In this document: one piece after another, positions 19,291 to 55,840 of the stretch
Position numbering within the stretch: position 1 is the first letter of the stretch
Layout: every line of letters begins with the position of its first letter
Origin: Prauserella aidingensis
Lineage (GTDB): Bacteria > Actinomycetota > Actinomycetes > Mycobacteriales > Pseudonocardiaceae
DNA: 64,000 nt
Direction: 5' to 3'
Assembly (NCBI RefSeq): GCF_024171865.1
Contig: NZ_JAMTCN010000002.1
Span: 186,001 to 250,000, forward strand
Notes under the pieces: model-generated
Database searches by the model: none
Told to the model about the DNA's origin: nothing
What the model saw: only the letters and a program-made list of their open reading frames with translations
Program-made: the position numbers and the translations under genes

Positions 19291-19390
19291 GAGCCGTGTT
19301 TCCGGGGCCCGTGTTGCGGTTTCCGGGGCGTGTGTTGCGCCCTCGGGGGCGCGTGTTGCGGTTTCCGGAGGTCGTGTTGCAGCCGACCGC
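19291..19390 (+). repeat. 21-bp repeat array A (GTGTTGCG on + strand)
   Basis: Four to five tandem 21-bp units fill the gap between the convergent folK and MerR genes. Each unit starts with CGTGTTGCG or a close variant and ends in a CCGGGG-like stretch. The first unit is degenerate (CCGTGTTTCCGGGG). It begins 3-4 bp after the folK stop. Confidence 0.85.
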
Positions 19391-19410
19391 CGACCCCGCG
19401 GCCCAGCCGG

Positions 19411-20391
19411 TTACGCCGTGGCACGGACCGCGGCGACGATCCACTTCGTCGCCGCGACGCGGCTGGGGACGGGCGGCCAGCCGTTGATGATCGCCAACAG
19501 CTGCCAGTAGCGCTCGGCCCGAGCGTCTCCGCCCGCGTCGATCTGGCCCGCCAGCCACCTGCGGTACTCGGGGCTGTCGGTCGGTTCGGGAACGCCGTCA
19601 CCGACGAACCACGCCGACGTGTCGGCCTCGCCGAGCGAAGCCCGCACGATCTCGTCGGCCAGGCCCTTGCCCTCGGCCGAATCGGGCGACAAGCCGGAGT
19701 CGGCGAACCCCTGAGCCCTTGCATGCCAGTCTTCCCAACGTGCCTGCTGGCCCCGCGAGAACGCGTCGATGTCGTGACCCGCCTCGCGCCGCTGCGCCTG
19801 CTGCTCGCTCATGCCCCGGATCAGCGCCCGGAACTCGGCGTCGGACACAAGCTCGGCGAACTCGATCCATGCCTCCAGCTGTTCCGGAGCCGGATCGTCG
19901 GGCAGCTCGGGCTTGGCCGACCGCATCCACGCGTAGAACTCCGTGTCGACGTCCAGGCCCGCGGTGACCTCGTCCCAGAACTCGTCGACGAGCCGTTTCC
20001 GCTCCTCGTCCGACATCGATGCCAGCTTGTTCATCAGTTCCACCTCTTCCAACTCGGATTCACGGTTCGCGACCGCCCGCAGCACGGCCCTGCGGTGGCG
20101 CAGCTCGCGCAGCCGGTCGTCGAGCGCCGTCACGTGCGCCTTCGCCAGCTCCGCGACCGTCGACGCCCCCGCCAGCACCCGCTCGATGTCGGCCAGGGCG
20201 AGGCCGAGCTCGCGCAGCGTGCGCACGAGTTCGAGCCGCGCCAGGGCGGTGACGTCGTAGAGCCGGTAGCCGGCCGCGGTGCGGTCGCTGGGAGGCACGA
20301 GACCCTCGTCGGAGTAGAACCGGATCGTCTTCACCGGCAGGCCGGTCCGCCGTGCCAGTTCGCCGATCGTGAATCGTCCCGATGGGGTCAT
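19411..20391 (-). CDS. MerR-family transcriptional regulator with a large C-terminal domain
   Basis: A 326-residue regulator. Residues 7-75 form the MerR DNA-binding domain (FTIGELARRTGLPVKTIRFYSDEGLVPP, GYRLYD), followed by a coiled coil (ALDDRLRELRHRRAVLRAVANRESELEEVELMN). The last 200 residues are a helical, acidic and Trp-rich domain with no motif I recognise; there is no cysteine metal site, so a drug or small-molecule sensor is more likely than a metal sensor. GGAGG precedes the ATG. It interrupts an otherwise conserved folK-DUF3180 neighbourhood and is bracketed by two inward-facing 21-bp repeat arrays, which suggests later insertion. Confidence 0.85.
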   Translation of the reverse strand: MTPSGRFTIGELARRTGLPVKTIRFYSDEGLVPPSDRTAAGYRLYDVTALARLELVRTLRELGLALADIERVLAGASTVAELAKAHVTALDDRLRELRHRRAVLRAVANRESELEEVELMNKLASMSDEERKRLVDEFWDEVTAGLDVDTEFYAWMRSAKPELPDDPAPEQLEAWIEFAELVSDAEFRALIRGMSEQQAQRREAGHDIDAFSRGQQARWEDWHARAQGFADSGLSPDSAEGKGLADEIVRASLGEADTSAWFVGDGVPEPTDSPEYRRWLAGQIDAGGDARAERYWQLLAIINGWPPVPSRVAATKWIVAAVRATA

Positions 20392-20548
20392 GTCCGCCTC
20401 CACGAATCCGAGCCTCGAGGCTCCAGTCGGTGGAGAGTCAACACCGTATCCGTATCCCGTGCCGAGTTGCAGGAATGCAGAACACTCGCAGCCCGGTGCA
20501 GGAAGCGCGAGTCCGGTTGCAGGCCACGCGGGACTGGTTTCCCGGGAT

Positions 20549-20735
20549 CCCGCAACACCGTCCCTTGAATCCGCAACACGGGCCCCGGAAACACAGTCGC
20601 GCGGCAGCGCGTCGACGAGGGGCGGCGGTCGGGCGACGGGCGGGAGCAACACGGGCCCCGTGGGAACGCAACACGGCCACCGGAACCTGCAACACGGGCC
20701 CGTGGGAACGCAACACGGGCACCTGGGAACACAGG
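20549..20735 (-). repeat. 21-bp repeat array B (GTGTTGCG on - strand), interrupted
   Basis: Six units, read as CGCAACACGG on the + strand, lie in the divergent gap between the MerR gene and the DUF3180 gene. Two units are followed by about 45 bp of unrelated GC-rich sequence, then four more at 21-22 bp spacing. It ends a few bases before the DUF3180 promoter. Confidence 0.85.
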
Positions 20736-20742
20736 GGGCCAG

Positions 20743-20748
20743 TACGGT
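20743..20748 (+). promoter_or_regulatory. -10 hexamer TACGGT of a leaderless promoter
   Basis: TACGGT lies 6 nt before the ATG of the DUF3180 gene, directly after repeat array B; no ribosome binding site is present. Confidence 0.6.
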
Positions 20749-20754
20749 GGGGCC

Positions 20755-21198
20755 ATGCACTTCACGCGCCCTCGCGAGCTGGTCGTCGCCGGGCTGGTCG
20801 GGCTCGTCGCGGTGTATCTGCTCTTCGAGTTGGCGTACGGGCAGTTGCCGAGCCTGCCGACTCTCGCGGGCGCGACGTTGCTCGTGCTGGCCGCGATCGA
20901 GACGGTTCTGGCGTTCGTGGTGCGGTCCCGAATCCGCGAGGGACGGGTGATCACGGGACTCGGGATCGCCCGTGCCGTCGCGCTGGCGAAGGCGTCCTCG
21001 CTTCTCGGGGCGCTCATGCTCGGCGCGTGGCTCGCGGGTGTGGCCTTCCTCGCGCCGCAGGCGAGCGACATCACGGCAGCTGCCGACGATCTGCCCGCCG
21101 CGGTGATCGGAACGGCGTGCGCTGCGCTGTTGATCGGCGCGGCCCTGTGGCTCGAACACTGTTGTCGCGCACCGGATACCGGCGACCGCGACGAGTGA
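20755..21198 (+). CDS. DUF3180 family membrane protein
   Basis: A 147-residue protein with four hydrophobic segments (about 11-26, 36-55, 82-99 and 115-135) and short charged loops, matching the DUF3180 family found next to folK across actinobacteria (Rv3605c in H37Rv). The segment RIREGRVITGLGIARAVALAKASSLLGALMLG is the conserved core. No enzymatic motif is visible and no function is known. The conserved link with folate genes is broken here by the MerR gene and repeat arrays. Confidence 0.85.
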   Translation: MHFTRPRELVVAGLVGLVAVYLLFELAYGQLPSLPTLAGATLLVLAAIETVLAFVVRSRIREGRVITGLGIARAVALAKASSLLGALMLGAWLAGVAFLAPQASDITAAADDLPAAVIGTACAALLIGAALWLEHCCRAPDTGDRDE

Positions 21199-21272
21199 TC
21201 ACCAGCGACCGGTCAGCGATCAGAACCTGCCGCTCGAAGTACCGACGAGGTCACGATCAGGCAACCGGAAGG

Positions 21273-21278
21273 TACGGT
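21273..21278 (+). promoter_or_regulatory. -10 hexamer TACGGT of a leaderless promoter
   Basis: TACGGT lies 7 nt before the ATG of the DUF6779 gene; no ribosome binding site is present. Confidence 0.6.
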
Positions 21279-21285
21279 ATCCGGC

Positions 21286-23958
21286 ATGACTGGCGAGGGT
21301 GAGGACGAGCCCGGCCGCAGATCGGGCGGCCGACTGTGGCCGGCCGTGGGCGTGCTGCTCGCGCTCGGCGCCACCGTCGCACTGATCCTGGCAGAGGACA
21401 TGCGGCTGCTGCGATTGGGCATTCTGGCCGCGCTCTGGGCCGCACTCATCGGCACGTTCCTCGCGACGCGTTATCGCAAGAAGGCAGCGGAAACCGAGGT
21501 GGCCGCATCCAAGGCACAGGAGATCTACGAGCTCGAACTGGAGCGTGAGGTCGCCGCCCGGCACGAGTTCGAGCTCGAGGTGGAGGCCGACACCAGGGAG
21601 CGTGTCGAGGACGAGTCGCGCGCCGAACTCGAGGCGCTGCGCGCCGAGGTCTCCTCCCTCAGGGAGAGTCTCCAGTCTCTTTTCGGCGGTGAGGTGATGT
21701 GGGAGCGCATCGCACTCACCGCACAGTCGACGCGGATGCGCTCGTTCGGTGACGAGCACCCTGTCGTCACCGCCGGTGAGAGCCCGGAGAAGCCCCGGCT
21801 GACGGCGGGCCGCGCCGAGAATCCCACCGAGTTCATCGGCAGGGTCGTCGACGCCGACGGCGGCGACGCGGGTGCCATCGCCAGGGCCATCGGCACGGCG
21901 AGCGGCACGGCGAGCGGCAACGGCGACGTCGCCGACGCGTTCGGCGGCGGCAACGGCTCGTCGCGCGGCGCCGCGGCGAAGGCCACTGCCGCCCAGAACA
22001 CCGCGGCGCCCCAGAACACGGCGGCGCCCCAGAACACCGCCTTCCGCAACGGGTCGTCCTCGGGCAGCACGGCGTCGAACGACGCCGGGTCCGATGCCCC
22101 GGCCAGGAACGGCTCCTCCGGAGCCGCGGCCAACGGCGCTACCTCGAACGGCGCGGCCTCGAACGGGGCGGTGCCCCACGGCCGGCCGTCGCGCGGTTCG
22201 GCGGGCGGTGCGATGCGGAACGGTGCGGCCGCGAACGGCGCCGCACCGAACGGCGCCGCACCGAACGGCGCCGCACCGCACGGGCCTGCGGCGACCGGGC
22301 CTGCGGCGAACGGGGCGGACCCGCGGCAACGGTCCGGTCGCGGCGAGGAAGCGGCTGAGTCGACGGCATGGTTCGCACCACCCGTGGACACCGCCGACGC
22401 AGACACCGACGACACCGACGACACCGACGACGCCGAGTTCGACGAGTACGGCGGCCCCATCGACGAGTCCGACACCGACCGCGCACCGGCTCCCGCACCG
22501 TCGGCCGATCCGCGGGCCGCACCCCGCAAGGCGCGTGGTCCCCAGCGGCGTCCCCAGCAGGCCGGGTCTCCGCCGGTGCCGCCGCAGCAACGCCCCGCCG
22601 CCCCGCAGCAGCCACAGGACACGCGGGCCCGCGCCGCGCAGTCCCGATCTCCGCAAGCCCGGAACCCGCAGTCCCAGAACCCGCAGTCCCGGGATCCGCA
22701 GGCGGGTGGCCAGCAGCAGGGCAGCGGACAGCGTGCGGGTACACCCGGCACTCGGACGCAGGTCGCGCCGAGGATGTCGAGGGCGTTCGACGACGGTGAG
22801 GTCGACGACGAGCAGGCCGACGCCGACGGGCGTGCCGGCGGCCCGCCGGGCCCCGGCGGCAGCGGCGACGAGCGGGGTGCCGCACGGTCCGCCGCGGCAG
22901 GTGGGCCCGACGAGGATCCGACGCGCCGCGTGCGTGCCCGTGAAGCCGCGGCGGCGAAGGAACGTTTCCGTCCTGCTCAGCGGGCGGGAGCGTCGCAGAC
23001 ACCCGCGTCGTCGCAGACACCCGCAGCGTCGCAGACACCCGCAGCATCGCAGGCAACCGCGGCGGCGCAGCCAACAGCGCAGGCGCAGGCTGCGGCCCAG
23101 GCGCAGGCTGGCAGGCAGGGCGCGAAACCGTCCCAGCAGGAGGCCGGCCGTCCGGTCCCGCCGCGGGCGGCGGATTCGCGGCCCGCGCAGCAGCCCGCAG
23201 GCCCGCCGAACCAGCCGGGCGGAGACCGCGGTGGTCCCGACCAGCGTGGTTCCGACCAGCGGGGCGGCGATCCGGTCGCCGCCACGGCCCAGCAGCCTGT
23301 GCACCCCGCACGTCCCGGCTCGGCGGCGCAGGGCCGACCTGCCGGATCACCCTCACGGCCGAACGAATCCCGCGGCGAGGGTCAAAATCGACGTGACGTT
23401 GACCTCACTCGGGCGAGTGAAGCGAACGAGCGTGGGCGTTCTGCCTCGCAACCTGGGGCTTCGGCCGGTCAGGGCATGGACAGGACCGCATCACAGACCG
23501 CTTACGCTCAGACACCCGAGACAGACTCCGGAGCGCCTGCGCGTGATCCGCGCGCCGGCGCTCCGAAGGCCGCCGAGCCGGCACCCGAGGTGGCTCCGGC
23601 GGAACAACCGATCGTGAAGGGACCCCTTCCACCCATGTCTTACCCCGAGCAGCCCGCCGGCGCGGCCGACTCGACCGAGGCCTCCGGCGAGGATTCCGTC
23701 GTCAACCCGACGCTGCCGCCCGAGGTGCGCGATCTCGCGCGCAAGCCGGGTGGTCGCCGTCGGCGTGCCGAGCCGGACGAGGAGGAGCCGCAGGGCGAGC
23801 AGGCGGCCGAGTCCGGCGGAGGTCGTCGTCGTGCTCCGGACCCCGAGGACGGCGAGCCGACGGGTTCGCACTCCTCCGGCCGTTCGGTGAGCGAGCTCCT
23901 CGCCGCTTACGGAACGGGCGACGCGACTCCGCGCCGTCGCCGTCGCGCCGAGGAGTGA
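21286..23958 (+). CDS. DUF6779-type membrane protein with a very long disordered tail
   Basis: An 890-residue protein whose first 150 residues hold two membrane segments (about 16-34 and 40-58) and then a charged coiled coil (EVAASKAQEIYELELEREVAARHEFELEVE...). This matches the conserved part of the mycobacterial Rv3604c family (DUF6779). The remaining about 700 residues are low complexity, with repeats such as AAPQNTAAPQNTA, NGAAPNGAAPNGA and QTPAASQTPAASQ. A short acidic-basic block at the C terminus (RSVSELLAAYGTGDATPRRRRRAEE) looks conserved. The function is unknown; the topology and length suggest a cytoplasmic scaffold at the membrane (inference). Confidence 0.8.
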   Translation: MTGEGEDEPGRRSGGRLWPAVGVLLALGATVALILAEDMRLLRLGILAALWAALIGTFLATRYRKKAAETEVAASKAQEIYELELEREVAARHEFELEVEADTRERVEDESRAELEALRAEVSSLRESLQSLFGGEVMWERIALTAQSTRMRSFGDEHPVVTAGESPEKPRLTAGRAENPTEFIGRVVDADGGDAGAIARAIGTASGTASGNGDVADAFGGGNGSSRGAAAKATAAQNTAAPQNTAAPQNTAFRNGSSSGSTASNDAGSDAPARNGSSGAAANGATSNGAASNGAVPHGRPSRGSAGGAMRNGAAANGAAPNGAAPNGAAPHGPAATGPAANGADPRQRSGRGEEAAESTAWFAPPVDTADADTDDTDDTDDAEFDEYGGPIDESDTDRAPAPAPSADPRAAPRKARGPQRRPQQAGSPPVPPQQRPAAPQQPQDTRARAAQSRSPQARNPQSQNPQSRDPQAGGQQQGSGQRAGTPGTRTQVAPRMSRAFDDGEVDDEQADADGRAGGPPGPGGSGDERGAARSAAAGGPDEDPTRRVRAREAAAAKERFRPAQRAGASQTPASSQTPAASQTPAASQATAAAQPTAQAQAAAQAQAGRQGAKPSQQEAGRPVPPRAADSRPAQQPAGPPNQPGGDRGGPDQRGSDQRGGDPVAATAQQPVHPARPGSAAQGRPAGSPSRPNESRGEGQNRRDVDLTRASEANERGRSASQPGASAGQGMDRTASQTAYAQTPETDSGAPARDPRAGAPKAAEPAPEVAPAEQPIVKGPLPPMSYPEQPAGAADSTEASGEDSVVNPTLPPEVRDLARKPGGRRRRAEPDEEEPQGEQAAESGGGRRRAPDPEDGEPTGSHSSGRSVSELLAAYGTGDATPRRRRRAEE

Positions 23959-24139
23959 ACCTCCCGCATTCCGCGTCCTCCGAGGTTCCGTGGCCGCCGT
24001 TCGAGGCGTGACAGGCGTCGAGGCGTGACAGAGGAGCCCCGGAGGGCGTCGTCTTCCTGGCAACCCGGGCATTCGTGACATTCCGCGCATAAGGCTTGCG
24101 CCGATCCGTGTCCCTCGCCCGGGTGTCGGGGTCGGCTAC

Positions 24140-24145
24140 TACCCT
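24140..24145 (+). promoter_or_regulatory. -10 hexamer TACCCT of a leaderless promoter
   Basis: TACCCT is followed by exactly 7 nt and the GTG start of the PrsW-type gene, the same geometry as at 1598-1603. Confidence 0.65.
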
Positions 24146-24152
24146 GCGCGGC

Positions 24153-25313
24153 GTGAACGGAGCGGCGACCGTCGTGCGGCACGCCCGGCGGAACATGACA
24201 CGTCTGGTCACCGTGCTGGTGCCGGTGACCGGCATGGTCGCGGTCGCGATCTGCGGCCTGATCGTGTTCGGCCTGGTCACCGTCCGGGCGGGAGCGCTTC
24301 CCGTGATCGTGGGCGTGATCGCAGCCGTGGTGCCGGTCTCGATCGTCACGGCCGCGCTGCTGTGGGTGGACCGGTGGGAGCCCGAGCCCGCCAAGTACCT
24401 GCTGTTGACCTTCCTGTGGGGCGCGTGCGTGGCGACGCTGCTGGCGCTGTTGGTCAACGACACCGCCAAGAGCGTCGGCGACTATCTCCTCGGCTTCGAG
24501 GGCGGCAACAGGATCGCCACCGTCATCTCCGCGCCCCTCGTGGAGGAGGCGATCAAGGCGGTGCCGCTCGTGGCCGTGCTGTGGCATCGGCGGAGCGAGT
24601 TCAACGGCGTCGTCGACGGCATCGTCTACGCGGGGTTCAGCGCTGCGGGGTTCGCGTTCACCGAGAACGTCTACTACTTCGCGAGCGCGTTCAACGAGGC
24701 CGGCTTCGGCGACGGCATGTCCTCGGGTGTCCTCGCGGCGTTCACGCTGCGCGGCGTGATGTCACCGTTCGCGCATCCGCTGTTCTCCGTGGTCATCGGC
24801 ATCGGCGTGGCGCTGACGGTGCAGAAGCGCTACTACGGCGCAGCCCGGTTCATACTGCCGGTGGTCTCCTACATCGGGGCCGTGTGCCTGCACGCGCTGT
24901 GGAACGCCGCGGCGACCCTCGGCGGGGCGCACACGTTCCTCAACGTCTACTTCCTGATCATGGCGCCGCTGTTCATCGGGGTCGGCCTGATCGTGGTGTG
25001 GCAGCGGCGCCGGGAGCAGCGCGTCGTCGCCGGGGCACTGCCCGCGATGGCCCGCCGCGGCTGGATCGCACAGTCGGAGATCGACCTGCTGGCGGACCTG
25101 GCCGCGCGGCGGCGTTGGCGCAAGCAGGCGCGCCGCGAGTCGGGTTCCGAGGCCGCGAGAGCCGTGGGCGACTACCAGGCCGCCGTGACCGAGTTGGCGT
25201 TCCTGCGCCGCAGGGGAGTCACGACGGACGACGAACGCGCACGTCACGACGACCTGCTGGCCGAGGCCAGGCAGACGAGAGCCGACGCCGTGAGCCTCGC
25301 GCGCACCGGGTGA
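24153..25313 (+). CDS. PrsW-family intramembrane metalloprotease
   Basis: A 386-residue membrane protein of the CPBP/PrsW type. Key motifs are PLVEEAIKAVPL (Glu131-Glu132 and Lys135), AGFAFTENVYYF, MSPFAHPLFSVVIG and CLHALWNA, which together supply the glutamates and histidines of the intramembrane zinc site. About nine hydrophobic helices are followed by a basic cytoplasmic tail of about 100 residues. PrsW-type enzymes cleave membrane proteins such as anti-sigma factors; the substrate here is unknown. The GTG start is favoured over an earlier in-frame start, because a leaderless -10 sits 7 nt before it. Confidence 0.88.
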   Translation: MNGAATVVRHARRNMTRLVTVLVPVTGMVAVAICGLIVFGLVTVRAGALPVIVGVIAAVVPVSIVTAALLWVDRWEPEPAKYLLLTFLWGACVATLLALLVNDTAKSVGDYLLGFEGGNRIATVISAPLVEEAIKAVPLVAVLWHRRSEFNGVVDGIVYAGFSAAGFAFTENVYYFASAFNEAGFGDGMSSGVLAAFTLRGVMSPFAHPLFSVVIGIGVALTVQKRYYGAARFILPVVSYIGAVCLHALWNAAATLGGAHTFLNVYFLIMAPLFIGVGLIVVWQRRREQRVVAGALPAMARRGWIAQSEIDLLADLAARRRWRKQARRESGSEAARAVGDYQAAVTELAFLRRRGVTTDDERARHDDLLAEARQTRADAVSLARTG

Positions 25314-25446
25314 AGCGTGTCACCCGAGCGCGTGACGGAATGCGGATTGCCGCTACGCTCGCGGTGTCGTCTGGTACCCGCGACGAGGTCGGGACTGGAA
25401 CGAGTTTGGGGAGTTTTGCGGCCATGAGCCTCCGAAGGGGCGCGCG

Positions 25447-26334
25447 ATGACGCGGCCCGCCCGCCTCTCGGTGGGCGTCGTGTCGGCGGGACGTGTCGGC
25501 AGTGTTCTCGGTGCGGCACTGACTCGCGCCGGACACGCCGTGACCGCGGTCAGTGCGGTGTCGGACGCCTCCGTCCGCCGCGCCGAACAGCTGCTGCCGG
25601 ACGCCGAGATCCTGCCGCCCGACGAGGTCGCCCGCCGCGCCGACCTGGTGTTGCTGGCGCTGCCGGACGACGTCCTCGAACCCATGACCACAGGTCTGGC
25701 CGGTGCGGACGCGCTGCGTCCCGGCCAGATCGTCGTGCACACGTCCGGCGCCCACGGGGTAGGCGTGCTCCGTGCCGCCGCCGACGCGGGTGCCCTGCCG
25801 TTGGCGCTGCATCCGGTCATGACCTTCACGGGCCGCGCCGAGGACGTGGAGCGGCTGACCACGGCCAGTATCGGCATCACCGCGGCGTCCGGTGACGACG
25901 CGGCCTGGCACGTCGGCGAGGCACTGACGGTCGAGATGGGTGCCGAGCCGGTGCGGGTTCCCGAGGCCGCCCGCCCGATCTACCACGCGGCGTTGGCTCA
26001 CGGCGCGAATCACCTGGCCACGATCGTCGCCGACAGTGTCGACCTGCTCGCCGACGCAGGCGTCGACCACCCGGACCGGGTCGTGGCGCCGTTGCTGTCG
26101 GCCTCGCTCGACAACTCCCTCCGCCACGGCGGCCGCGCGCTCACCGGGCCGGTGGCGCGCGGCGACACCGGAACCGTGACCGAGCACCTGCGGGTGCTGG
26201 CGGAACGGGCCCCCGACGTCGCACCCACCTACGCGGCGCTGGCTCGCCGCACGGTGGCGCGGGCGAAGCTCGCGGGGCTGCTCGGCGACGACGCGGCAGC
26301 CGAACTGGAAAACCTCCTCGACAACCGATCGTGA
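25447..26334 (+). CDS. Rossmann-fold DUF2520 protein upstream of panC
   Basis: A 295-residue protein with an N-terminal NAD(P)-binding Rossmann fold (GVVSAGRVGSVLGAALTRAGH) and the C-terminal helical DUF2520 domain (ALAHGANHLATIVADSVDLLADAGV, RALTGPVARGD). It resembles 6-phosphogluconate dehydrogenase/ketopantoate reductase-like enzymes and sits immediately upstream of panC, as in mycobacteria (Rv3603c). A pantoate-related oxidoreductase role is therefore tempting. The classical GxGxxG is altered to SAGRVGS, which argues for caution. It ends 15 bp before panC and is likely co-transcribed with panC-panD-coaX. Confidence 0.85.
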   Translation: MTRPARLSVGVVSAGRVGSVLGAALTRAGHAVTAVSAVSDASVRRAEQLLPDAEILPPDEVARRADLVLLALPDDVLEPMTTGLAGADALRPGQIVVHTSGAHGVGVLRAAADAGALPLALHPVMTFTGRAEDVERLTTASIGITAASGDDAAWHVGEALTVEMGAEPVRVPEAARPIYHAALAHGANHLATIVADSVDLLADAGVDHPDRVVAPLLSASLDNSLRHGGRALTGPVARGDTGTVTEHLRVLAERAPDVAPTYAALARRTVARAKLAGLLGDDAAAELENLLDNRS

Positions 26335-26349
26335 CAGGCAGCGAACCCC

Positions 26350-35492: not shown

Positions 35493-35586
35493 CCGAGTAG
35501 GCAGACCGGAAAACCGAGTAGGCAGACCGGAACAACTGGCTAGGCAAACGGCCGAGTAGACAGAAACGGCCGACTAGGCAAACGGC
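35493..35586 (+). repeat. Degenerate tandem repeat (CCGAGTAGGCAGACCGG) after clpC
   Basis: Five imperfect copies of CCGAGTAGGCAGACCGG or CCGACTAGGCAAACGG, spaced 16-21 bp, start 7 bp after the clpC stop and run into the terminator stem. Confidence 0.75.
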
Positions 35587-35624: not shown

Positions 35625-35748
35625 CGTGTCCTGCACTCAGACCCGCGTGTTGCGCTTTCCGGGGACCGTGTTGTGTTCTCCGGCGGCCGTGTTCCGCTTT
35701 TCAGGGACCGTGTTGCGGATTCCAGGGGCCGTGTTGCGCCCAGTCGCC
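35625..35748 (+). repeat. 21-bp repeat array C (GTGTTGCG on + strand)
   Basis: A leader unit containing TGTCCTGCACTC is followed by five tandem 21-bp units starting CGTGTTGCG, CGTGTTGTG, CGTGTTCCG, CGTGTTGCG and CGTGTTGCG. It lies between convergent clpC and the dienelactone hydrolase gene. Confidence 0.85.
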
Positions 35749-35793
35749 CGGCTGCCAACCCTCACGATTAACGACGGTGCGCCGCTCGTCATG

Positions 35794-35828
35794 GGCTCGT
35801 GTCGCGTCCCCGGGACGCAACACGAGCC
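35794..35828. terminator. Hairpin made of two opposed GTGTTGCG units
   Basis: Arms GGCTCGTGTCGCGTCCC and GGGACGCAACACGAGCC pair over 17 bp with one mismatch and a one-base centre. Each arm contains the core of the 21-bp repeat family in opposite orientation. It lies 32 bp past the hydrolase stop and could terminate that gene. Confidence 0.6.
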
Positions 35829-41285: not shown

Positions 41286-41397
41286 CAGCCTCCCGAATCC
41301 GCAACACGGCCTCCTGGGGCCGCAACACGGCGCCCGGAAACCGCAACACGGTCTCCGGAATCCGCAACACGGTCCCCGGGATCCGCAACACGGCGGG
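41286..41397 (-). repeat. 21-bp repeat array D (GTGTTGCG on - strand)
   Basis: Five units, CCGCAACACGG on the + strand, repeat with an exact 21-bp period. They fill the whole space between the convergent hydrolase and amidase genes, reaching to within 5 bp of the amidase stop. Confidence 0.9.
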
Positions 41398-48544: not shown

Positions 48545-49820
48545 CGAACCCCTCGTCGATCAGCGGCAGATCGCCTTCGGCCACGGACCGTTCGACGGTC
48601 TGCACCACGACGATCTCGGAGCGGACGAACGTGTCGATCGTTGCGTCCTTGTGTTTGCCGAGGTGCGGGTAGCTCAGCAGCGTGAGGTCCGCGAACGCGG
48701 CGGGCAGGTACCGCGACGAGGCGAACGTGAACGAGTCGCCGATCAGCGCCGTCGGCGCGCCGATCGTGCCCTCGATGTCCTTGCCCGCGTCGGCGTCGTA
48801 GCGCTCCGGGCCGTCGAACTTGCGCAGCGTGTCCTGCGTGCGGTCGGTCTCGCCGTCGGGCATCAGCTCGTAGCGCACCGACGTCTTCGGCTCGGTGCGG
48901 CCCAGCATCGACGCGAGGTCGCCGTTGGCCGTCGACCATCCCACGCCAGGGCTTCGCCACGTGTCGGTGACGCCGGGCTGGAGCTTCTCGGCGACGTCGC
49001 GGGTCAGCATCACGGCGCCGTCGTCGGTCCAGTGCGTGTCGTTGGCGAAGTACGGCGGGTGGCCCAGCTGGCGTTCGGCGGCCTCGAGTGAGGGGCGGAC
49101 GTCGAGGAAACTCCGCTGCTGCGCTGCCAGTTCCCAGAACCGCTCGGTCGCCTTCGTCGCACATTCCTTGCCCGCGTAGTTGTCGGGAAGGTGCTGCGGC
49201 ACCATCGTCGTCTTGTCCGGGGCGATGGTGAGCAGGAAGCGGCGCCCCGATGCCTCGACGGCGTGGCGGATCCGGTCGAGCCGCTCGAACGTCTCCGTGA
49301 GCGGGCGCTTGGGGAAGCACTTCCCCTTGACGTCGTCGCCGTAGTACAGCCAGCCGTCGGAGCCCTCGATGACCTCGGTGTAGCCGGCGCTCTGCACCTG
49401 TTCGTCCCGGGAACCGCCGTCCCCGCCGTTGCCGTTGCCTTCGGGTCCGTCCGGCACGCCGGGGATCGGACCGGAACCCTCGGCCGGTCCCATCGGCGCG
49501 GGCTCGCCGAAGAGCCCGTGGCTGATGCCGTCCGCGGCTTCGATGGCGCCTTCGCGGAAGACGAGGTGATCGGTCGCCCACTGCGGCATGCCCGTGAAGA
49601 AACCCCACCCGTCGGCCGGGCTGGGGAAGCTCGCGAGTTCACGGTTCTCGATCTCGCTCGGCCTGCCACCGAACACCCACCCCAGTGCGGGCGCGGCGAA
49701 GAACACGGCCGCGCACACGAGGGCTGTGACCTGCCTGCCGTGGCGTGGGCGGTACAGCGAGTGCTCACGCGGCAGCCACGCCTCGTGCACGGGCGGCAGC
49801 GTCCGGGACGTATCGGTCAC
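48501..49820 (-). CDS. AlgX/AlgJ-like SGNH O-acetyltransferase-family protein
   Basis: A 439-residue protein with one N-terminal membrane anchor (TALVCAAVFFAAPALGWVFG) and an extracytoplasmic SGNH-like domain. The triad seen in AlgX is present: Asp261-x-His263 in DTHWTDDG and Ser363 in IGDSFTF. A Gly/Asn-rich loop (PEGNGNGGDGGSRDEQ) follows the first strand. The family takes acetyl groups delivered by an AlgI-type MBOAT protein and attaches them to an exopolysaccharide; a matching MBOAT gene lies 7 kb away. The GTG start is chosen because TACCGT lies 6 nt before it; an in-frame GTG 21 nt upstream lacks this. Confidence 0.8.
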   Translation of the reverse strand: MTDTSRTLPPVHEAWLPREHSLYRPRHGRQVTALVCAAVFFAAPALGWVFGGRPSEIENRELASFPSPADGWGFFTGMPQWATDHLVFREGAIEAADGISHGLFGEPAPMGPAEGSGPIPGVPDGPEGNGNGGDGGSRDEQVQSAGYTEVIEGSDGWLYYGDDVKGKCFPKRPLTETFERLDRIRHAVEASGRRFLLTIAPDKTTMVPQHLPDNYAGKECATKATERFWELAAQQRSFLDVRPSLEAAERQLGHPPYFANDTHWTDDGAVMLTRDVAEKLQPGVTDTWRSPGVGWSTANGDLASMLGRTEPKTSVRYELMPDGETDRTQDTLRKFDGPERYDADAGKDIEGTIGAPTALIGDSFTFASSRYLPAAFADLTLLSYPHLGKHKDATIDTFVRSEIVVVQTVERSVAEGDLPLIDEGFVTMVERRLAANPIR

Positions 49821-49826
49821 CCGGAC

Positions 49827-49832
49827 ACGGTA
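49827..49832 (-). promoter_or_regulatory. -10 hexamer TACCGT of a leaderless promoter
   Basis: On the minus strand TACCGT precedes the chosen GTG of the AlgX-like gene by 6 nt. Confidence 0.55.
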
Positions 49833-49890
49833 TCGGCCCACGCCCCACCCGGTGGCCGATACCGGTCGACAGGGTGGCCGGTATCGGCGC

Positions 49891-51126
49891 TCAGTGCAGC
49901 ATGACCAGGACCTGGAGCTCGCCGACGACGCCGCCGATCAGGCCGCCGACGACGACGAGCTTCCATTCGTCCTGGCGGAAGGCAGGCCGCAGCAGCCCTT
50001 CGTACTCCACGGGCGTCAGCTTGTTCATCCGATCCTCGACGAGTCGTGCCACGGCCATCGCCTCGGTCAGGTACCCCTCGGCGTACTGCACCGTCTCGGG
50101 CACGCGTGCGATGGCCTTGTCGGCCGCCGAGCGCTTCATCTCCTCGAGCCGCTTCGGGCCGAGCGTGGCCGTCACCAGCGGCCGGGCGTTGCCCGCGTGT
50201 TCGTCGACCGCTTCGGCGACGACGCGGGAGATCATCGCCATCAGCCGGTCGGAACGCGGGCCGCGCAGGATGGAGTCCATCAGGTTCGGCACCGTCAGCA
50301 CGTCGCGGGCGATGATCTCGCCGTACTGCTGCGCGACCTCGGCCTTCCTGCGCTGGAACTTGCCCTGGAAGTACAGCCTGCGCGTCACGTGGACCGGCTC
50401 GCGCGGCACGAAGACCAGCTTGATCGCCAGCCAGTCGGTGAACAGGCCGACCGCGGCACCGAAGATCGGCATGACCAGCGGATTCTTCGTCACGGCCCAC
50501 ACGACGGCCTGCACGATGCCGAGTGCGAAACCGAAGTAGATACCCGAGCGGGCGATGAACGCCATCTCGGGGCGCGACGTCTCGCGGATCAGTTTCACCA
50601 ACAGCTTCCTGTCGTTGGTGAGCCGGCGGACCGTCATTTCCTTGACGTCGAGGAAGTCGTCGACGTTCTCGCGCATCTCCAGCATCAGCTGTCGCACGAG
50701 CTGCGGCGTCTGCGCCTGGATCTGCTTGATCACCAGGTCCTGCGCGACGGCCGGAAGCCGCTCCCACACCCGGGGATGGCTCTCGGCGAGCACCTCGCGC
50801 GCGACGTCGTCGACGGTGCGCAGCAGCGGTTGCTCGATCTCCTCGGTGATGCGGTCCGGGTCGATCTGCGCGAAGACGTCCTTGATGTCGAGGAGATTCT
50901 TCGTCAGCAGGTCGGTGGCGATCGCGGCCATCCGGCCGCCGTGCTGCGGGACGACGCCCTGCCAGCCGAGGAAGGTGCCCTTGATGCCCCTCCATTCGAT
51001 CGGACGGAACATCATTTCGATCGCCACGCGCTTGGTGACGTAGCCGATCAGTGCCGCGACGAAGGGGATGGCCGTGTACAACGGCCAGTTCTGCGAGATG
51101 TCGGCGACGATCGCGTCGATATCCAC
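49891..51126 (-). CDS. DUF445 family membrane protein
   Basis: A 411-residue protein with a hydrophobic segment at about 18-35, a long charged helical middle region, a pair of hydrophobic helices around residue 205-245 (MAFIARSGIYFGFALGIVQAVVWAVT, PLVMPIFGAAVGLFTDWLAIKLVF), and a final one (LVVVGGLIGGVVGELQVLVML). The motif YVTKRVAIEMMFRPIEWRGIKGTFLGWQGVVP and the repeat FTDWLAIKLVFVPREP identify DUF445, whose role is unknown. AAGGAG precedes the GTG start. Confidence 0.87.
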   Translation of the reverse strand: MDIDAIVADISQNWPLYTAIPFVAALIGYVTKRVAIEMMFRPIEWRGIKGTFLGWQGVVPQHGGRMAAIATDLLTKNLLDIKDVFAQIDPDRITEEIEQPLLRTVDDVAREVLAESHPRVWERLPAVAQDLVIKQIQAQTPQLVRQLMLEMRENVDDFLDVKEMTVRRLTNDRKLLVKLIRETSRPEMAFIARSGIYFGFALGIVQAVVWAVTKNPLVMPIFGAAVGLFTDWLAIKLVFVPREPVHVTRRLYFQGKFQRRKAEVAQQYGEIIARDVLTVPNLMDSILRGPRSDRLMAMISRVVAEAVDEHAGNARPLVTATLGPKRLEEMKRSAADKAIARVPETVQYAEGYLTEAMAVARLVEDRMNKLTPVEYEGLLRPAFRQDEWKLVVVGGLIGGVVGELQVLVMLH

Positions 51127-51219
51127 GTCGCGGTCTCCTTCCCCCTCAACCGGTCACGCCGCAGAACAGTATCGCGACGGGTTGTGACACGAGGTATGGG
51201 CATCGGGCTACCAACTCAT

Positions 51220-51225
51220 TAAAGT
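51220..51225 (+). promoter_or_regulatory. -10 hexamer TAAAGT of a leaderless promoter
   Basis: TAAAGT lies 6 nt before the ATG of the DivIVA-like gene, in a locally AT-rich spot; no ribosome binding site is seen. Confidence 0.6.
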
Positions 51226-51231
51226 TGCCGG

Positions 51232-52422
51232 ATGGCCGAAGCCGACGTCACCCCGAATTCCCCCAAATCCGGCGCCTTCACGACCGTGTTCCGCGGTTAC
51301 GACCAGGTGCAGGTCGACGACCACATCAAGAAGCTGAACTCCAAGCTGGAACAGACCTCGCGCAGTCGGGACGACGCCACGGCGTCGGTCGCGGACCTGA
51401 CCAAGGCGCTCGGGCACGCCCAGCAGGAGCTCGTCGAGACCAAGGCCGCGCTCACCCGGATGGCCGAGGAGCCCACCGGGCCCGCGGCCATGAGCGAGCG
51501 CGTCAAGACGATGATGACGCTCGCCGAGGAGGAGATCGACGAGCTGCGTACGAAGGCCGAGGAGGAGGCGGCCGCGACCAGGTCGGCCGCCGACTCGTAC
51601 GCGGAGAAGACCCGCGAGGAGGCGCGCGCGGAGGCGCAGCGTCTCGCCGAGGAGGCCGAGCGCGAACGCGGTCGCCTCGACGAACAGGCGGCGAAGCAGC
51701 GCAGCGATGCCGAGAAGGCCTCGCAGGACAAGATCGCCGCTGCGGAGAAGAAGTCGGACGACGAGATCGCCGCGGCGAAGGCGGCGGCGGAGAAGGCCGC
51801 CAAGGAGCTCACCGACGACGCGAAGAGCCGCGCCGACGCCATGATCGCCGAGGCCGAGGCCCGCCTCGCCGACGCGAAGGACAAGCACGCCCAGGCGCTG
51901 GAACTGCGCCGCACCGTCGCCGACCGCATGGCCGCGAGCAACGCCGCGCTCACCGATGCGCTCGACAAGCTCGGCCCGGCGCCGGAACCACTCGATTGGG
52001 CGACGTCCGGATCGGACGGTTCCGGCGCTGCCGCGTCCGCCGGCGCCGCATCCACCGGTGCCGCATCCGGCACGTCCGCCGGTTCCCGGGACGCCGGATC
52101 GACGGACTCCGGATCCAAGGATGCCGCGTCCACGGCTGCCGGTTCGACGGACTCCGGATCGGGGACCGCCGGCTCGAACGCCTCGCAGAAGACGTCGAAA
52201 CCGCAGGTCGGGGCCGCGGCGAAGGAGGAAGGGACGGCGGTCGCGTCCGGGAGTGCGGAATCGGGTGCCGGTTCGTCGAAGGCGGCCACGTCGCCGTCGA
52301 ACGACTCCGGTGGCGCGCAGTCGGCGCGCGGTTCCGGCGACGCGTCCGGGCCTGCGCAGCCGACCCCGAAGCCCGGCTCCGCGAAGGCCGACGGCCAGGG
52401 CAAAGAGGCGTCCTCGGCGTGA
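51232..52422 (+). CDS. DivIVA-domain-like coiled-coil protein
   Basis: A 396-residue protein. Residues 15-35 (FTTVFRGYDQVQVDDHIKKL) match the N-terminal DivIVA signature that targets curved membrane or poles. A long charged coiled coil extends to about residue 245 (EEEIDELRTKAEEEAAATR..., AAAEKAAKELTDDAKSRADAM). The last 150 residues are a Ser/Gly/Ala-rich disordered tail. By analogy with Wag31 and Scy/FilP, a role in polar growth or cytoskeletal scaffolding is likely but unproven. The gene is transcribed alone from a leaderless promoter. Confidence 0.78.
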   Translation: MAEADVTPNSPKSGAFTTVFRGYDQVQVDDHIKKLNSKLEQTSRSRDDATASVADLTKALGHAQQELVETKAALTRMAEEPTGPAAMSERVKTMMTLAEEEIDELRTKAEEEAAATRSAADSYAEKTREEARAEAQRLAEEAERERGRLDEQAAKQRSDAEKASQDKIAAAEKKSDDEIAAAKAAAEKAAKELTDDAKSRADAMIAEAEARLADAKDKHAQALELRRTVADRMAASNAALTDALDKLGPAPEPLDWATSGSDGSGAAASAGAASTGAASGTSAGSRDAGSTDSGSKDAASTAAGSTDSGSGTAGSNASQKTSKPQVGAAAKEEGTAVASGSAESGAGSSKAATSPSNDSGGAQSARGSGDASGPAQPTPKPGSAKADGQGKEASSA

Positions 52423-52561
52423 GGCGTGCGAGACTCACCCGTGACACCGGTGCGTGGCGGCTACAGCACGCCGGGTCGACCGGCCGTGGCCGGTCGTCAT
52501 GCACCGGCGAAGGTCACATCGGTGCTGTCAAAACGGACGGAACGGGTGCAAGATCCACGCC

Positions 52562-53665
52562 GTGAGTACGAGAACGCCTGACACGGTGCAGGCCGCCGCG
52601 GACGACGCGACGGCCGGTGCCGACCAGCACGCCGATCCGGAGGCGGCCGCCGAGGCGGTCGCGACCGGAGTAGGCGAGTCGTCGGCGGCCGACACCGTCC
52701 ACGACGGAGCAGCGTCAGCGGCCGTCGAACCGGCGGTGCCCGCCGACGTGGAGGTCGAGATCCCGACGTCGACCGCCGCGGCGTCCGACGTCTCCACCAC
52801 CGACGGTGCTGCCGTCGACGCGGTGGCCGGCGAGGGAGTGTCCGTGGACGTCGAGGTCGCGGCCGCTGCCGACGACGACGACGTCGCCGCCGACGGCCCC
52901 GGAGGACTCGACGGCGAGGTTCGGGAGCCTCGCCCGGTGCCGGTCGACTTTCCCGTGTACGGCCTGCACCCGCGGATTCCCGGTCCCCGTTGGGTCGACT
53001 TCTTCGAAGGCGGAAGCGGTGGTCCTGCCGCGCAGGATGACGACGCCGGTGTCGTCTCCGAACTCGGCGAGGCCGGCCAGGCGCCGTGGGCGTTGTGGCT
53101 CGGCCAGCGGCTGGCCGACACCGAACGAGGTCTGCGCATCGGCAGCATGCCGCGATCGCGGTACGAACGCGCCATGTGCCCCGGTGGCGGCGATCCTCTG
53201 GCCGAGGTGGCGTTCGGTGCCGCTTTCGGATTGGTCAACCTCACGTTGCCGGACAGCAGCGTGCCGCGGCCGGACGGGCTGATCGAATCGCTGCTCGCCC
53301 ACGCGGAACAGCACGCGCGGCGGTACGAGAAGTGGAAGCGCGTGACCTGGCGCGTGGACGGGATGTCGGTGCGTGCGCGGATCTGGGAGTTCGCGGGTGG
53401 CTGGACCGGCTTCACCGGCGACCTCGACGACAGCTACGTCGCGGTGATCGGCATCGGCGTCGCGGCCGAGGGGTTGAGCCTGGCGAGGGTGACCGATCCC
53501 AAGGCGTACGGCGTGGACTTCTCCACGCCCATCAGCCTGGCCGACCTGGGCAAACACCGCGCGACGCGCCCCGAGGCGTGGCTTCCGCCGCCGCGCCGCG
53601 ACGCCTTCCACCCGGAACAGCTCGCCCTTCTCCCGGACGATCACCCCGACGCGAATCCGGAGTAA
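52562..53665 (+). CDS. Conserved hypothetical protein with an acidic Ala-rich N terminus
   Basis: A 367-residue protein I do not recognise. Residues 1-120 are an Ala/Asp/Glu/Val-rich low-complexity stretch with no signal peptide. The folded part begins near VPVDFPVYGLHPRIPGPRWVDFFEG and contains WALWLGQRLADTERGL, LAEVAFGAAFGLVNLTLP, ARRYEKWKRVTWRVDGMSVRARIWEFAGGWTGF and DSYVAVIGIGVAAEGLSLA. Several Trp and Arg residues suggest a compact beta-rich domain. No catalytic motif is visible. The start is GTG; CAAGAT seven nt upstream is a weak leaderless -10. Confidence 0.7.
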   Translation: MSTRTPDTVQAAADDATAGADQHADPEAAAEAVATGVGESSAADTVHDGAASAAVEPAVPADVEVEIPTSTAAASDVSTTDGAAVDAVAGEGVSVDVEVAAAADDDDVAADGPGGLDGEVREPRPVPVDFPVYGLHPRIPGPRWVDFFEGGSGGPAAQDDDAGVVSELGEAGQAPWALWLGQRLADTERGLRIGSMPRSRYERAMCPGGGDPLAEVAFGAAFGLVNLTLPDSSVPRPDGLIESLLAHAEQHARRYEKWKRVTWRVDGMSVRARIWEFAGGWTGFTGDLDDSYVAVIGIGVAAEGLSLARVTDPKAYGVDFSTPISLADLGKHRATRPEAWLPPPRRDAFHPEQLALLPDDHPDANPE

Positions 53666-53680
53666 CCCCTGCCGCGGCGC

Positions 53681-53804
53681 ATGTCCTGCACTCCTGCAGC
53701 CGTGTTGCGCTTTCGGGGGCTCGTGTTGCGTTCTGGGGAGCCCGTGTTGCGTGCCCGGGGACCCGTGTTGCGTTCTCCGGGGCTCGTGTTGCGCCTTACC
53801 GTCG
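53681..53804 (+). repeat. 21-bp repeat array E (GTGTTGCG on + strand)
   Basis: A leader with TGTCCTGCACTC, shared with array C, is followed by five CGTGTTGCG units with an exact 21-bp period. It starts about 15 bp after the hypothetical protein's stop. The rest of the gap, to 54023, contains no gene I can support. Confidence 0.9.
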
Positions 53805-54023
53805 CGCGGACCACCACTCCCACCCGACGCGCCGGCACGCGACCGCGTTCGTGGGCAGTGGTGCGTCCTTCCGTCGCCCGGAATTCATACCTCGGCGCGC
53901 ACGTTCCGGTGGGTGACGGTTGACATGGGTGGTTAGCATGAAATGTCCGGTATGAGTCATCTCCCCACACGATCCTGTTGTGGCAGTGGCTCACCGGTGT
54001 GCCGACCGCCGAGAGGGTCGCGG

Positions 54024-55061
54024 ATGACGACCGGAGGAGACGGGGCGCCGGAACAAGACGCGGGCCCGGAGCGGATGGTGAGGCTGCTCGCGGGTTTCGA
54101 GGTGTCGCAGGCGTTGTACGCGGTCGCGCAGCTCGACATCGCGACGGTGATGAACGAGGGTGTGCGCGGCGTCGCCGAGATCGCGGCGAGAACGGGCACC
54201 GACGCTCTCGTCGTGAAGCGGGTCTTGCGGACGCTGGGCGACTTCGGCGTCGTGGACCAACGCGGTGACGCGGAGTTCGTCCTCACGGATTCGGGTGTGA
54301 CGCTGGCTGCGAACGTTCCCGGTTCGCTGCGCGATCTGGCGATCATGCTGATGGAAACGCATTACCTGCCGTTCGATCGGTTCGTCGAGACGGTCCGAAC
54401 AGGACGTCCGGCCGCAGAGATCTACTTCGGACAGACGTTCTTCGAGTGGCTGAACACGGAACCCGGACGAGCGGACCAGTTCAGTGCCGCCATGGCGTCG
54501 GTGACCGACGGTATGCAGGGTGACGTGTTCTCGGGCTACCGGTTGCCGGTGGGCGAGGTCGTGGCCGATCTCGGTGGCGCGGACGGGTCGGTGCTGCTTC
54601 GGCTGTTGCAGGAACATCCGGATCGCAGGGGAATCGTGCACGACCTTCCCGCGGTCGTCCCCGCGGCGCACACCCGCGTGGCAGATGCCGGGCTCGACAC
54701 CCGCGTCGATGTCGTCGGCGGCGACTTCTTCGACGACGTTCCGGTCGCCGACGTCTATCTACTGTCGACGGTGCTGCACGATTGGGACGACGAATCCTGT
54801 GCGGCCCTGTTGACGCGGATCGCGCGCACGGCGCGGGCGGGAGCGCGACTCGTCGTGGTCGAGATGATCATGCCAGAGACCGCTGAAGTGCACTCGAGCA
54901 AGCAGGTGGATCTGACGATGCTGGGAATGATCAGTGGCCGTGAGCGCACGTTGACCGAGTTCACGGACCTGCTCGCGAGCGCAGGTTTCCGACTGGATCG
55001 CGTCGTGCCGACCGCGGACACCAGCTCCTACGAGATCATCGAGGCCTCGCTCACCGGTTGA
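54024..55061 (+). CDS. SAM-dependent O-methyltransferase (polyketide/secondary-metabolite type)
   Basis: A 345-residue class I methyltransferase of the PF00891 type. An N-terminal winged-helix dimerisation domain (ALYAVAQLDIATVMNEGVRGVAEIAARTG, VKRVLRTLGDFGVVDQRGD) is followed by the SAM-binding motif VADLGGADGSVLLRLLQEHP, then HDLPAVVPAA, GDFFDDVPVADVYLLSTVLHDWDDE and the C-terminal substrate region. VLHDWDDE carries the expected catalytic His. It usually methylates hydroxyl groups of aromatic metabolites, but no biosynthetic cluster is visible nearby. The ATG is chosen for the GAGAGGG upstream. Confidence 0.88.
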   Translation: MTTGGDGAPEQDAGPERMVRLLAGFEVSQALYAVAQLDIATVMNEGVRGVAEIAARTGTDALVVKRVLRTLGDFGVVDQRGDAEFVLTDSGVTLAANVPGSLRDLAIMLMETHYLPFDRFVETVRTGRPAAEIYFGQTFFEWLNTEPGRADQFSAAMASVTDGMQGDVFSGYRLPVGEVVADLGGADGSVLLRLLQEHPDRRGIVHDLPAVVPAAHTRVADAGLDTRVDVVGGDFFDDVPVADVYLLSTVLHDWDDESCAALLTRIARTARAGARLVVVEMIMPETAEVHSSKQVDLTMLGMISGRERTLTEFTDLLASAGFRLDRVVPTADTSSYEIIEASLTG

Positions 55062-55146
55062 CCGCCCGTTGCGTTGTCCTCGGTGCCGAGCGTCCCGCGC
55101 TGAGGCAGGCATTTCTCGTTCGCGCGTGGATGTCGGGGGTTCGGCT

Positions 55147-55152
55147 TACGGT
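55147..55152 (+). promoter_or_regulatory. -10 hexamer TACGGT of a leaderless promoter
   Basis: TACGGT stands 6 nt before the GTG of the DUF1697 gene. Confidence 0.6.
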
Positions 55153-55158
55153 GGGTGT

Positions 55159-55710
55159 GTGACGTCGACCTGGTACTGCGCACTGCTGAGGGGAATCGGA
55201 CCCGGTAACCCGAACATGCGCAACGAGAAGTTGCGCGAGGTGTTCGAGAGTCTCGGATTCACCGGCGTCACGTCGGTGCTGTCGAGCGGGAACATCGTCT
55301 TCGCGACGGATTCCACGGACCCGAAGACACTCGAGGACCGGATCAGGTCCGGCCTCCGCGATGAACTGGGTATTGCCGGTGGAACCATCGTGCGCAGCCG
55401 CGCCGAGCTGCAGGACCTCATGGACACGGGATCGTTCGGCGACCTCGAGCACACCCGCGAGACGTATCTGACGGTGACGTTCCTGAAGGAGCCACCGGAT
55501 CCCGTCCCGGAATCGCTACCGGAAGTCGCCGACTCCACTGTCCGCATCGTCGGCTACGACGCCGCGGCACGCGCGGTGCTGACGGTGTCGGACAACACCG
55601 CGTCGCCTCCGTTCATGACCCTGCTGGAACGGCGATTCGGCACGGACATCACCACTCGAACCTGGCTGACCGTGCACCGCATCCTGAAACGGTTCCCGGA
55701 GCAGTCGTAG
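55159..55710 (+). CDS. DUF1697 family protein
   Basis: A 183-residue protein matching DUF1697: an N-terminal ferredoxin-like half (YCALLRGIGPGNPNMRNEKLREVFESLGFTGVTSVLSSGNIVF) and a C-terminal half (DNTASPPFMTLLERRFGTDITTRTWLTVHRILKRF). The typical GGKN of the family is replaced by GPGNPNM. The function is unknown. With the methyltransferase it forms the pair enclosed by repeat arrays E and F. Confidence 0.85.
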   Translation: MTSTWYCALLRGIGPGNPNMRNEKLREVFESLGFTGVTSVLSSGNIVFATDSTDPKTLEDRIRSGLRDELGIAGGTIVRSRAELQDLMDTGSFGDLEHTRETYLTVTFLKEPPDPVPESLPEVADSTVRIVGYDAAARAVLTVSDNTASPPFMTLLERRFGTDITTRTWLTVHRILKRFPEQS

Positions 55711-55770
55711 CCCGTGCACGGACGTGCGAGTCGCTCGTGACGAGTGTTCCCGAGCGCAGGAGTCGCGGTG

Positions 55771-55840
55771 CCTGAGCGCAGAACACGCGCCCCGGGAGCT
55801 GCAACACGCGCTCCGGGAACTGCAACACGGGTGTGTGGCG
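55771..55840 (-). repeat. 21-bp repeat array F (GTGTTGCG on - strand)
   Basis: About three units, GCAACACGSG on the + strand, lie between the convergent DUF1697 and MBOAT genes. The outer one is degenerate. The array reaches to within about 10 bp of the MBOAT stop. Confidence 0.75.

Follow-up and report, generated by a model that had tools for sequence, protein, structure and literature searches.

The window analysed here is a stretch of 64,000 bp from Prauserella aidingensis (contig NZ_JAMTCN010000002.1, positions 186,001 to 250,000), which corresponds to G000:C3:186001-250000 in our numbering, G000 being the window's own genome of 5.65 Mb in 80 contigs. It contains six short arrays of a tandem repeat with a period of 21 bp, designated A1 to A6, all of them positioned between genes. 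These arrays had been recognised from the letters alone, and the six were located at or within a few bases of the places given in that original prediction. Apart from the common unit with the core CGTGTTGCG (type I), a second 21-bp unit type (type II, CGTGTYCTGCAYTC...) was present within some arrays, namely at 35625, at 53680 (degenerate) and within 55767-55829. For comparison, six sister species of the same genus were used, G001 to G006. The arrays and the elements standing with them are as follows.

19295..19393, plus strand: array A1, with heads at 19310, 19331 (TGTGTTGCG), 19352 and 19373 (CGTGTTGCA) and a truncated head at 19295 ahead of them; in the convergent gap between an HPPK gene (plus strand) and a MerR-type gene (minus strand)
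20549..20735, minus strand: array A2, with profile units at 20560-20580 and 20655-20717 and a companion element between them; the one divergent site of the window
20590..20654 (ends approximate), minus strand: companion element in A2, TTGCTCCCGCCCGTCGCCCGACC...GACGCGCTGCCGCGCGAC, after the array and in the same orientation
35625..35750, plus strand: array A3, after clpB, with a type II unit at 35625 followed by five type I heads, two of them degenerate
35804..35824, minus strand: one unit in inverted orientation, within the gap that holds A3
41288..41392, minus strand: array A4, with five heads spaced exactly 21 bp apart; in the convergent 118-bp gap flanked by the genes for an alpha/beta hydrolase and an amidase
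53680..53805, plus strand: array A5, opening at 53680 with CATGTCCTGCACTC, a type II unit in degenerate form, and continuing with five heads of type I; in a codirectional gap ahead of an O-methyltransferase gene
55767..55829, minus strand: array A6, with a pair of type I units and, at the 3' end, one of type II; in the convergent gap between a DUF1697 gene and an MBOAT gene

Twenty exact copies of the core CGTGTTGCG were counted in the window, whereas 100 dinucleotide shuffles held 1.48 on average and 4 at most. A profile scan returned 140 sites scoring at least 8, against 9 for the reversed profile. Furthermore, exact neighbour pairs of the core number 305 in the whole G000 genome (132 on the plus and 173 on the minus strand), against 0 for the same pattern read backwards; the repeat family is therefore real and is not confined to the window. 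As had been claimed, the period is almost strictly kept: on 450 kb of contig C3, 62 of the 71 successive same-strand cores less than 200 bp apart were separated by 21 bp, the other nine spacings being 42 bp (five), 63 bp (two), 22 bp and 95 bp (one each). It should be added that in G000 this step was measured without preselection and that in G001 it was detected by a tandem repeat finder.

The consensus calculated from 62 units was CGTGTTGCG[GC][AT]T[TC]C[CGA]GG[GA]G[CA][CT]. The 12-nt tail, originally described as variable, is so only in part, as about half of it is conserved, positions 12, 14, 16, 17 and 19 strongly so in the profile of the same 62 units. CRISPR arrays consist of a constant repeat of about 23-47 bp and unrelated spacers of similar length; the present arrays differ from them, as had been proposed, with a 9-bp core and a 12-bp tail that has a consensus of its own. 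Intergenic tandem repeats with varying copy number are also represented by mycobacterial MIRU and cyanobacterial STRR/LTRR elements, which have other unit lengths and sequences. A Pfam scan of the 11 genes flanking the window arrays gave matches in 10, none of them cas, and no match to Rfam 15 reached its gathering score in the window.

The single inverted unit at 35804..35824 forms, together with the sequence preceding it, a hairpin with near-perfect arms and one mismatch, as judged by eye. In the same region, directly after clpB (35493-35586), the window carries a different repeat of 21-22 bp, CCGAGTAGGCAGACCGGAAAA, and its relatives; similar repeats were present at the same place in G003, G004 and G005.

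Placement relative to genes

Placement was analysed in 879 kb of G000 (450 kb of C3, C6 and 140 kb of C4) with genes called by a purpose-written codon-model script rather than a published gene finder. Arrays were counted if they had at least two units, which gave 53 with none dropped; 26 further single profile matches stayed outside these counts, and 12 of the 14 such matches on C3 lie inside genes and have low scores. Array density was 62, 76 and 21 per Mb on C3, C6 and C4, respectively. On C3, otherwise densely occupied, some 100 kb (at about 104-205 kb) are without an array of two or more units.

By location, 20 arrays lie in convergent gaps, 26 in codirectional gaps, two in divergent gaps and five within called open reading frames (ORFs), one of which, of 47 residues, was judged spurious, the other four being genes. 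Thus, 49 of the 53 arrays are intergenic in a sample of which only 11 to 14% lies outside called genes. The statement that all arrays are intergenic holds for the window and for all 28 arrays on the 450 kb of C3, and fails for four of the 53 over the whole sample. Among the 48 arrays outside called ORFs, which occupy 45 distinct gaps (three with more than one array), convergent gaps were enriched (20/48, Fisher p 4e-4) and divergent ones depleted (2/48, p 3e-4). In codirectional gaps the unit strand followed the gene strand in 17 cases and opposed it in nine (p 0.17).

A comparable picture was obtained for G001, where 28 arrays with strict heads were found in 430 kb: 12 convergent, 11 codirectional (nine on the same strand as the genes, two on the opposite), four divergent and one within the cytochrome gene described below. 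Convergent gaps were again enriched (12/27, p 3e-4), with a weaker divergent depletion than in G000. In stretches of six other genomes of the family, chosen for their pattern matches, 34 array readings representing 32 arrays (two G059 arrays were counted on both strands) included none in a divergent gap; three G009 arrays lie in called ORFs, these calls being unverified, and the others are intergenic.

All four gene-internal arrays of G000 are in frame. Their host genes encode a cytochrome c assembly protein, an acyltransferase, a GNAT acetyltransferase and, by a weak match (25.7 bits with a cut-off of 23), a dimethylargininase-like protein. In the cytochrome c assembly gene the repeat fills a linker, the number of units varies among G000 and its relatives, and in G001 the units are of that species' own type. 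The acyltransferase gene holds four units in G000, three in G006, a degenerate remnant in G003, and arrays with the companion element in G004 and G005; in these five genomes the lengths of the repeat segments are divisible by three and the frame is open in all, G001 and G002 being not alignable there. Rickettsia palindromic elements also occur both in frame within protein genes and between genes; they are palindromic and do not form 21-bp tandem arrays.

Such placement bears on the proposal, made in the original prediction, that the arrays act in transcript end formation, as transcription terminators or RNA 3'-end elements. With 46 of 53 arrays in convergent or codirectional gaps, most stand 3' of at least one gene; their units show a mild sense bias, and in G005, less clearly in G004, a hairpin sequence occupies the A1 site in place of the array. 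Folding was equivocal. In the sense direction z fell below -2 for 10 of 26 arrays, against 12 of 72 array-free codirectional gaps, and the mean for arrays (-1.59 sense, -0.58 antisense) was stronger than that of the codirectional controls (-0.89); however, 31 array-free convergent gaps averaged -2.87, with 17 of them below -2. Moreover, the unit consensus has no T run, A3 is already preceded by a strong hairpin, and the C:G balance of the unit strand reverses between sister species (by eye, 6:9 in the G000 consensus and 10:5 in the first unit most often found in G001); a consistent Rho-type composition is thus lacking. Since in-gene arrays of terminator kind should harm the gene, the four in-frame arrays also disfavour a role in termination, which we regard as very improbable.

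Sites, bodies and polarity in the sister species

In the region orthologous to the window, 24 of the 25 arrays of the six sister species lie at the six sites of G000, and all 24 have the G000 orientation. The A3 site is occupied in all six species. At A1, eight units are present in G002 and CAG-type units in G001, in the same orientation, and no array in G003 to G006; at A4, G001 and G002 have no array and G003 a degenerate one. The G001 piece used in this site-wise comparison spans A1 to A4 only; at the A5 site G001 likewise has an array with its orientation kept.

The sequence of the units tells another story. Pairs of CGTGTTGCG were counted 54 to 305 times in six genomes of the genus including G000 (54 to 244 in the five others) and 0 times in G001. 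In mirror image, pairs of CGTGTCAGC were found 217 times in G001 and 0 times in the other six genomes of the genus, and tandem repeat finding placed 21-bp arrays of CGTGTCAGC... at the orthologous A1 and A3 sites of G001. Ten of the 28 G001 arrays have both flanks no more than 3 kb apart in the G000 sample, and for nine of these ten a G000 array lies between the flanks; two of the nine share a single G000 array, and two fall in multi-array stretches of 2.5-2.9 kb with arrays on both strands. Orientation was clear for seven G001 arrays, which correspond to six in G000, including A3, A5 and A6, and it agreed in every case. Because the arrays of the two species coincide in place and orientation, we conclude that sites and directions were inherited while the bodies of the units changed.

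The tails also point to change within resident arrays. For five sites in six species, mean tail identity was 0.662 within arrays, 0.601 between species at the same site, 0.580 between sites of the same species and 0.542 between sites of different species, without a test on the differences between these classes; units of the same site are thus only slightly more alike across species than units of other sites in the same or another species. In G000, identity was 0.644 within and 0.597 between arrays, a difference reached in 0 of 2000 permutations, which marks the units as homogenised within arrays. Homogenisation and changing copy number are what one would expect of neutral tandem repeats that arise by slippage and recombination in places free of selection and are kept alike by ectopic gene conversion; the convergent bias could then reflect avoidance of promoters, and vertical descent alone would explain the common orientation at common sites. 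Slippage agrees poorly, however, with adjacent G000 units being no more alike than units two apart; the latter were in fact the more similar (3/500 shuffles), an effect not seen in G226, G237 or G009. We regard a neutral origin of this kind as improbable, also for reasons given below.

A polarity within the arrays was most evident in G001. With degenerate heads allowed, the first unit was of CAG type in 28 of 29 arrays, the penultimate unit in 16 of 20, and the last unit was of TTG type in 24 of 29 (p 8e-12); with strict heads a hand count gave CAG in 27 of 28 first and TTG in 16 of 28 last units. The tail ACCCCACGTCGC was carried by 13 of 28 first units of G001, against 4 of 89 others. The G000 arrays are polar to a lesser extent: of 49 arrays, 38 have an exact head in the first unit and 26 in the last (p 0.019). 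They begin sharply at a head, with a tail-like stretch before only 2 of 28 and a tail after the last head in 13 of 28. The TTG-type end unit of G001 resembles the sister-species body and may therefore be left over from an earlier one. A swap that mostly spares the last unit finds no explanation in slippage and conversion among neutral repeats.

Polarity of this kind would be expected of a dedicated rewriting system, in which a trans-acting factor, guided by CGTGT at every 21-bp step, adds or converts units one after another from the 5' side, with the last unit serving as the anchor, so that many dispersed loci change body together and keep their place and direction. We consider this rather unlikely in so specific a form. 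If it is true, the order of units in an array would preserve, in part, the sequence in time in which the unit types followed one another, and a change in what the factor recognises would lie behind the swap in G001.

The same observations may be viewed from the side of function, with the arrays as docking platforms: a protein or dimer would sit on each 21-bp unit of two helical turns and form a cooperative filament on one face of the DNA that insulates, anchors or blocks polymerase at gene ends. The exact 21-bp step in G000 and G001 and their shared CGTGT head would suit such binding, as would the fixed sites and orientation, the distinct first and last units, the enrichment in convergent gaps of both species and the depletion of divergent ones in G000; a changed specificity of the protein would have forced the body swap in G001. 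Set against this, many orthologous sites have no array (four species lack A1; G001 and G002 lack A4), and some arrays lie inside genes. Selection alone, furthermore, would have had to rewrite some hundreds of units in step. Docking on one helix face, which the original prediction had offered as well, remains, in our view, a serious if doubtful candidate, close behind the propagating repeat preferred below.

The wider CGTGT family and its proposed propagation

Outside the genus, pairs of CGTGTTGCG were absent from 53 other genomes of the family and from 40 genomes of the order; among the matches listed in another search were Prauserella isguenensis, P. salsuginis, P. alba, P. rugosa and P. halophila, together with scattered matches outside Prauserella. 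The head alone is more widely distributed. The pattern of four CGTGT heads at 21-bp spacing was found in 50 of 297 Pseudonocardiaceae genomes, G000 included, from 13 of 46 genera, this being the family to which the original prediction had pointed. At least five matches were present in 33 of the 50 genomes (eight genera) and one to four in the other 17, with a maximum of 246 in G226. The same pattern reversed, used as control, had matches in 15 of 297 genomes and at least five in three (G178 with 28, G200 with 15 and G160 with five). In a phylum-wide draw of 396 genomes three had a match, namely G000 and two with one match each. Since the head and the 21-bp step were preset by the search, their constancy outside Prauserella is partly built in. 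The bodies vary by lineage, for example CGTGTTTGCCGCTCCGGGCGC, CGTGTCCTGCACTCCCGACGC and CGTGTCGTCCGTCCAATCACG. A head and a period common to several genera are not explained by slippage, and the 247 of 297 family genomes without the pattern at this threshold count against a docking platform.

In lineage g16 (G059, G326 and G278) the units resemble CGTGTC...GACACG, with a 3' arm complementary to the head; the arrays are thus rows of palindromes, so the pattern can match on both strands, and one g16 unit folds into a 6-bp stem (-7.2 kcal/mol). As to a possible phage origin, the pair pattern was also seen in nine stretches of viral contigs; one of them, L222 (IMGVR_UViG_3300033145_000191, 7204-8019), carries seven CGTGTTGCG pairs, mostly at 35-bp steps, and this is probably another kind of repeat. 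As regards replication polarity, the strand of arrays with at least six heads, taken from the first 100 of 119 matches listed for the single-contig genome G226, changed relative to dnaA (185 kb) from 12 minus and three plus to four minus and nine plus; these counts were made by hand and take the opposite pole to lie half a chromosome away. This was not repeated on contig C1 of G237 (10 minus and three plus before dnaA, 24 minus and nine plus after it), and the pattern in G009 was weak.

Arrays may stand or travel with other elements. Several G000 arrays are followed, in the same orientation, by a companion element about 55 bp long that contains a small hairpin; apart from the copy in A2, copies were located at G000:C3 50358, 270783, 309808 and 441986, and the element also occurs away from arrays of at least two units. 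In G237, nine of 66 listed matches (C1:530016, 594841, 2773444, 3035779, 3081786 and 3414135; C2:1003110, 1436448 and 1517053) carry one and the same order of three unit variants, dispersed and near-identical. A dispersed non-coding element of about 500 bp was seen beside G237 arrays (L183, 9441-9990, and L184, with parts in L181, L182, L186 and L176), and a piece of it in G226. In the genus of G237, arrays and this other element thus occur side by side or move as one, and either may be the one that is copied. Head-to-head array pairs were also observed, in G237 (L183, L184 and L186) and G226 (L180), with the partners 2, 2, 13 and 12 bp apart. The companion element, the wider CGTGT family, the body swap and the polarity all go beyond the original prediction.

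Among described repeats, a search of open-licence papers found no description of the 21-bp family, in line with the lack of any record known at the outset, and the repeat passages of PMC3469384 and PMC4210621 contain nothing relevant to it. One of the two nearest likenesses is to REP/BIME elements, which the relevant passages of PMC3733652 describe as palindromic stem-loops, 20-40 bp long and tagged with GTAG or CGTC, the GTAG repeats being associated with RAYT transposases and the CGTC repeats not; the word Actinobacteria is absent from the main text of that paper. As in the REP features given there, the present repeats are short, dispersed and mostly extragenic, combine a terminal tag with a lineage-specific rest, form clusters and head-to-head dimers (here in G237 and G226), and have some copies in genes. 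Unlike REP, the Prauserella units are non-palindromic, stand head to tail at 21 bp with the head CGTGT, and have no GTAG or CGTC end tag; G001 units often carry CGTC near the 3' end, where it is not the free tag of a stem-loop. The consensus G000 unit folds into two 3-bp stems only (-5.5 kcal/mol), and the commonest first unit of G001 into one 4-bp stem (-1.9 kcal/mol). The family is thus somewhat REP-like but fails two defining REP features. The other is to the TAACTGA heptamers of Beggiatoaceae, which, in the account given in the repeat sections of PMC4679880, are likewise numerous dispersed intergenic sets of direct repeats, patchy among relatives and of unknown cause; they are pure 7-bp repeats placed, in the genome described there, mostly just upstream of start codons, unlike the 21-bp unit with its swap between sister species and only 2 of 48 arrays in divergent gaps.

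Our preferred reading, held tentatively and as somewhat less than probable, is that of a propagating non-coding repeat of Pseudonocardiaceae that is rewritten in place. A unit consists of the CGTGT head and a 16-bp body typical of the lineage. Arrays would settle where they do little harm, in convergent gaps, on the 3' sides of genes and in protein linkers, where 21 bp keep the frame; once settled, they would be inherited at a fixed site and orientation and then rewritten. A putative trans-acting machinery may recognise the head and convert resident arrays to the prevailing unit type, starting, to judge from the polarity, on the array's 5' side and as a rule leaving its last unit unchanged. 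Copying to new sites, alone or with other elements, would be rarer, and the repeat would persist mainly through its own propagation. A propagating element is mildly favoured because bodies were replaced genome-wide, arrays come and go at sites, and the G237 modules are dispersed; to this extent the replicating element offered in the original prediction stands, with the qualification that at least two of the G237 modules lie in a longer repeated element.

Several observations weigh against this reading. The sites are conserved, with one new site only, a type II pair in G005, so that in Prauserella arrays have moved seldom or did so long ago. Neither a target-site duplication nor a clean insertion boundary was defined, polarity was not evident in G237 or G009, and the trans-acting machinery and its direction are what we infer from the arrays. 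Two of the nine G237 modules, at 530016 and 594841, were compared beyond the array; their flanks are 95% identical over some 500 bp and contain an inverted repeat, so that this flanking element may be what moved, taking the array with it. It should also be added that the enrichment in convergent gaps could be functional, as could the modest sense bias in codirectional gaps; the figure for the latter (37 same and 17 opposite, p 0.009) combines G000 and G001 with four others, and the sites and gaps in it are not independent. A propagating repeat and a docking platform are not mutually exclusive, and a reading at the DNA level fits better than termination.

Dispersed repeats in bacteria are usually put down to the transposition of palindromes. 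Here, non-palindromic tandem arrays keep their site between species, change their sequence together and retain a five-base head common to several genera, which makes concerted evolution of dispersed bacterial loci directly testable. The same combination predicts an unknown enzyme or DNA-binding protein whose change in specificity would be readable between two close species.

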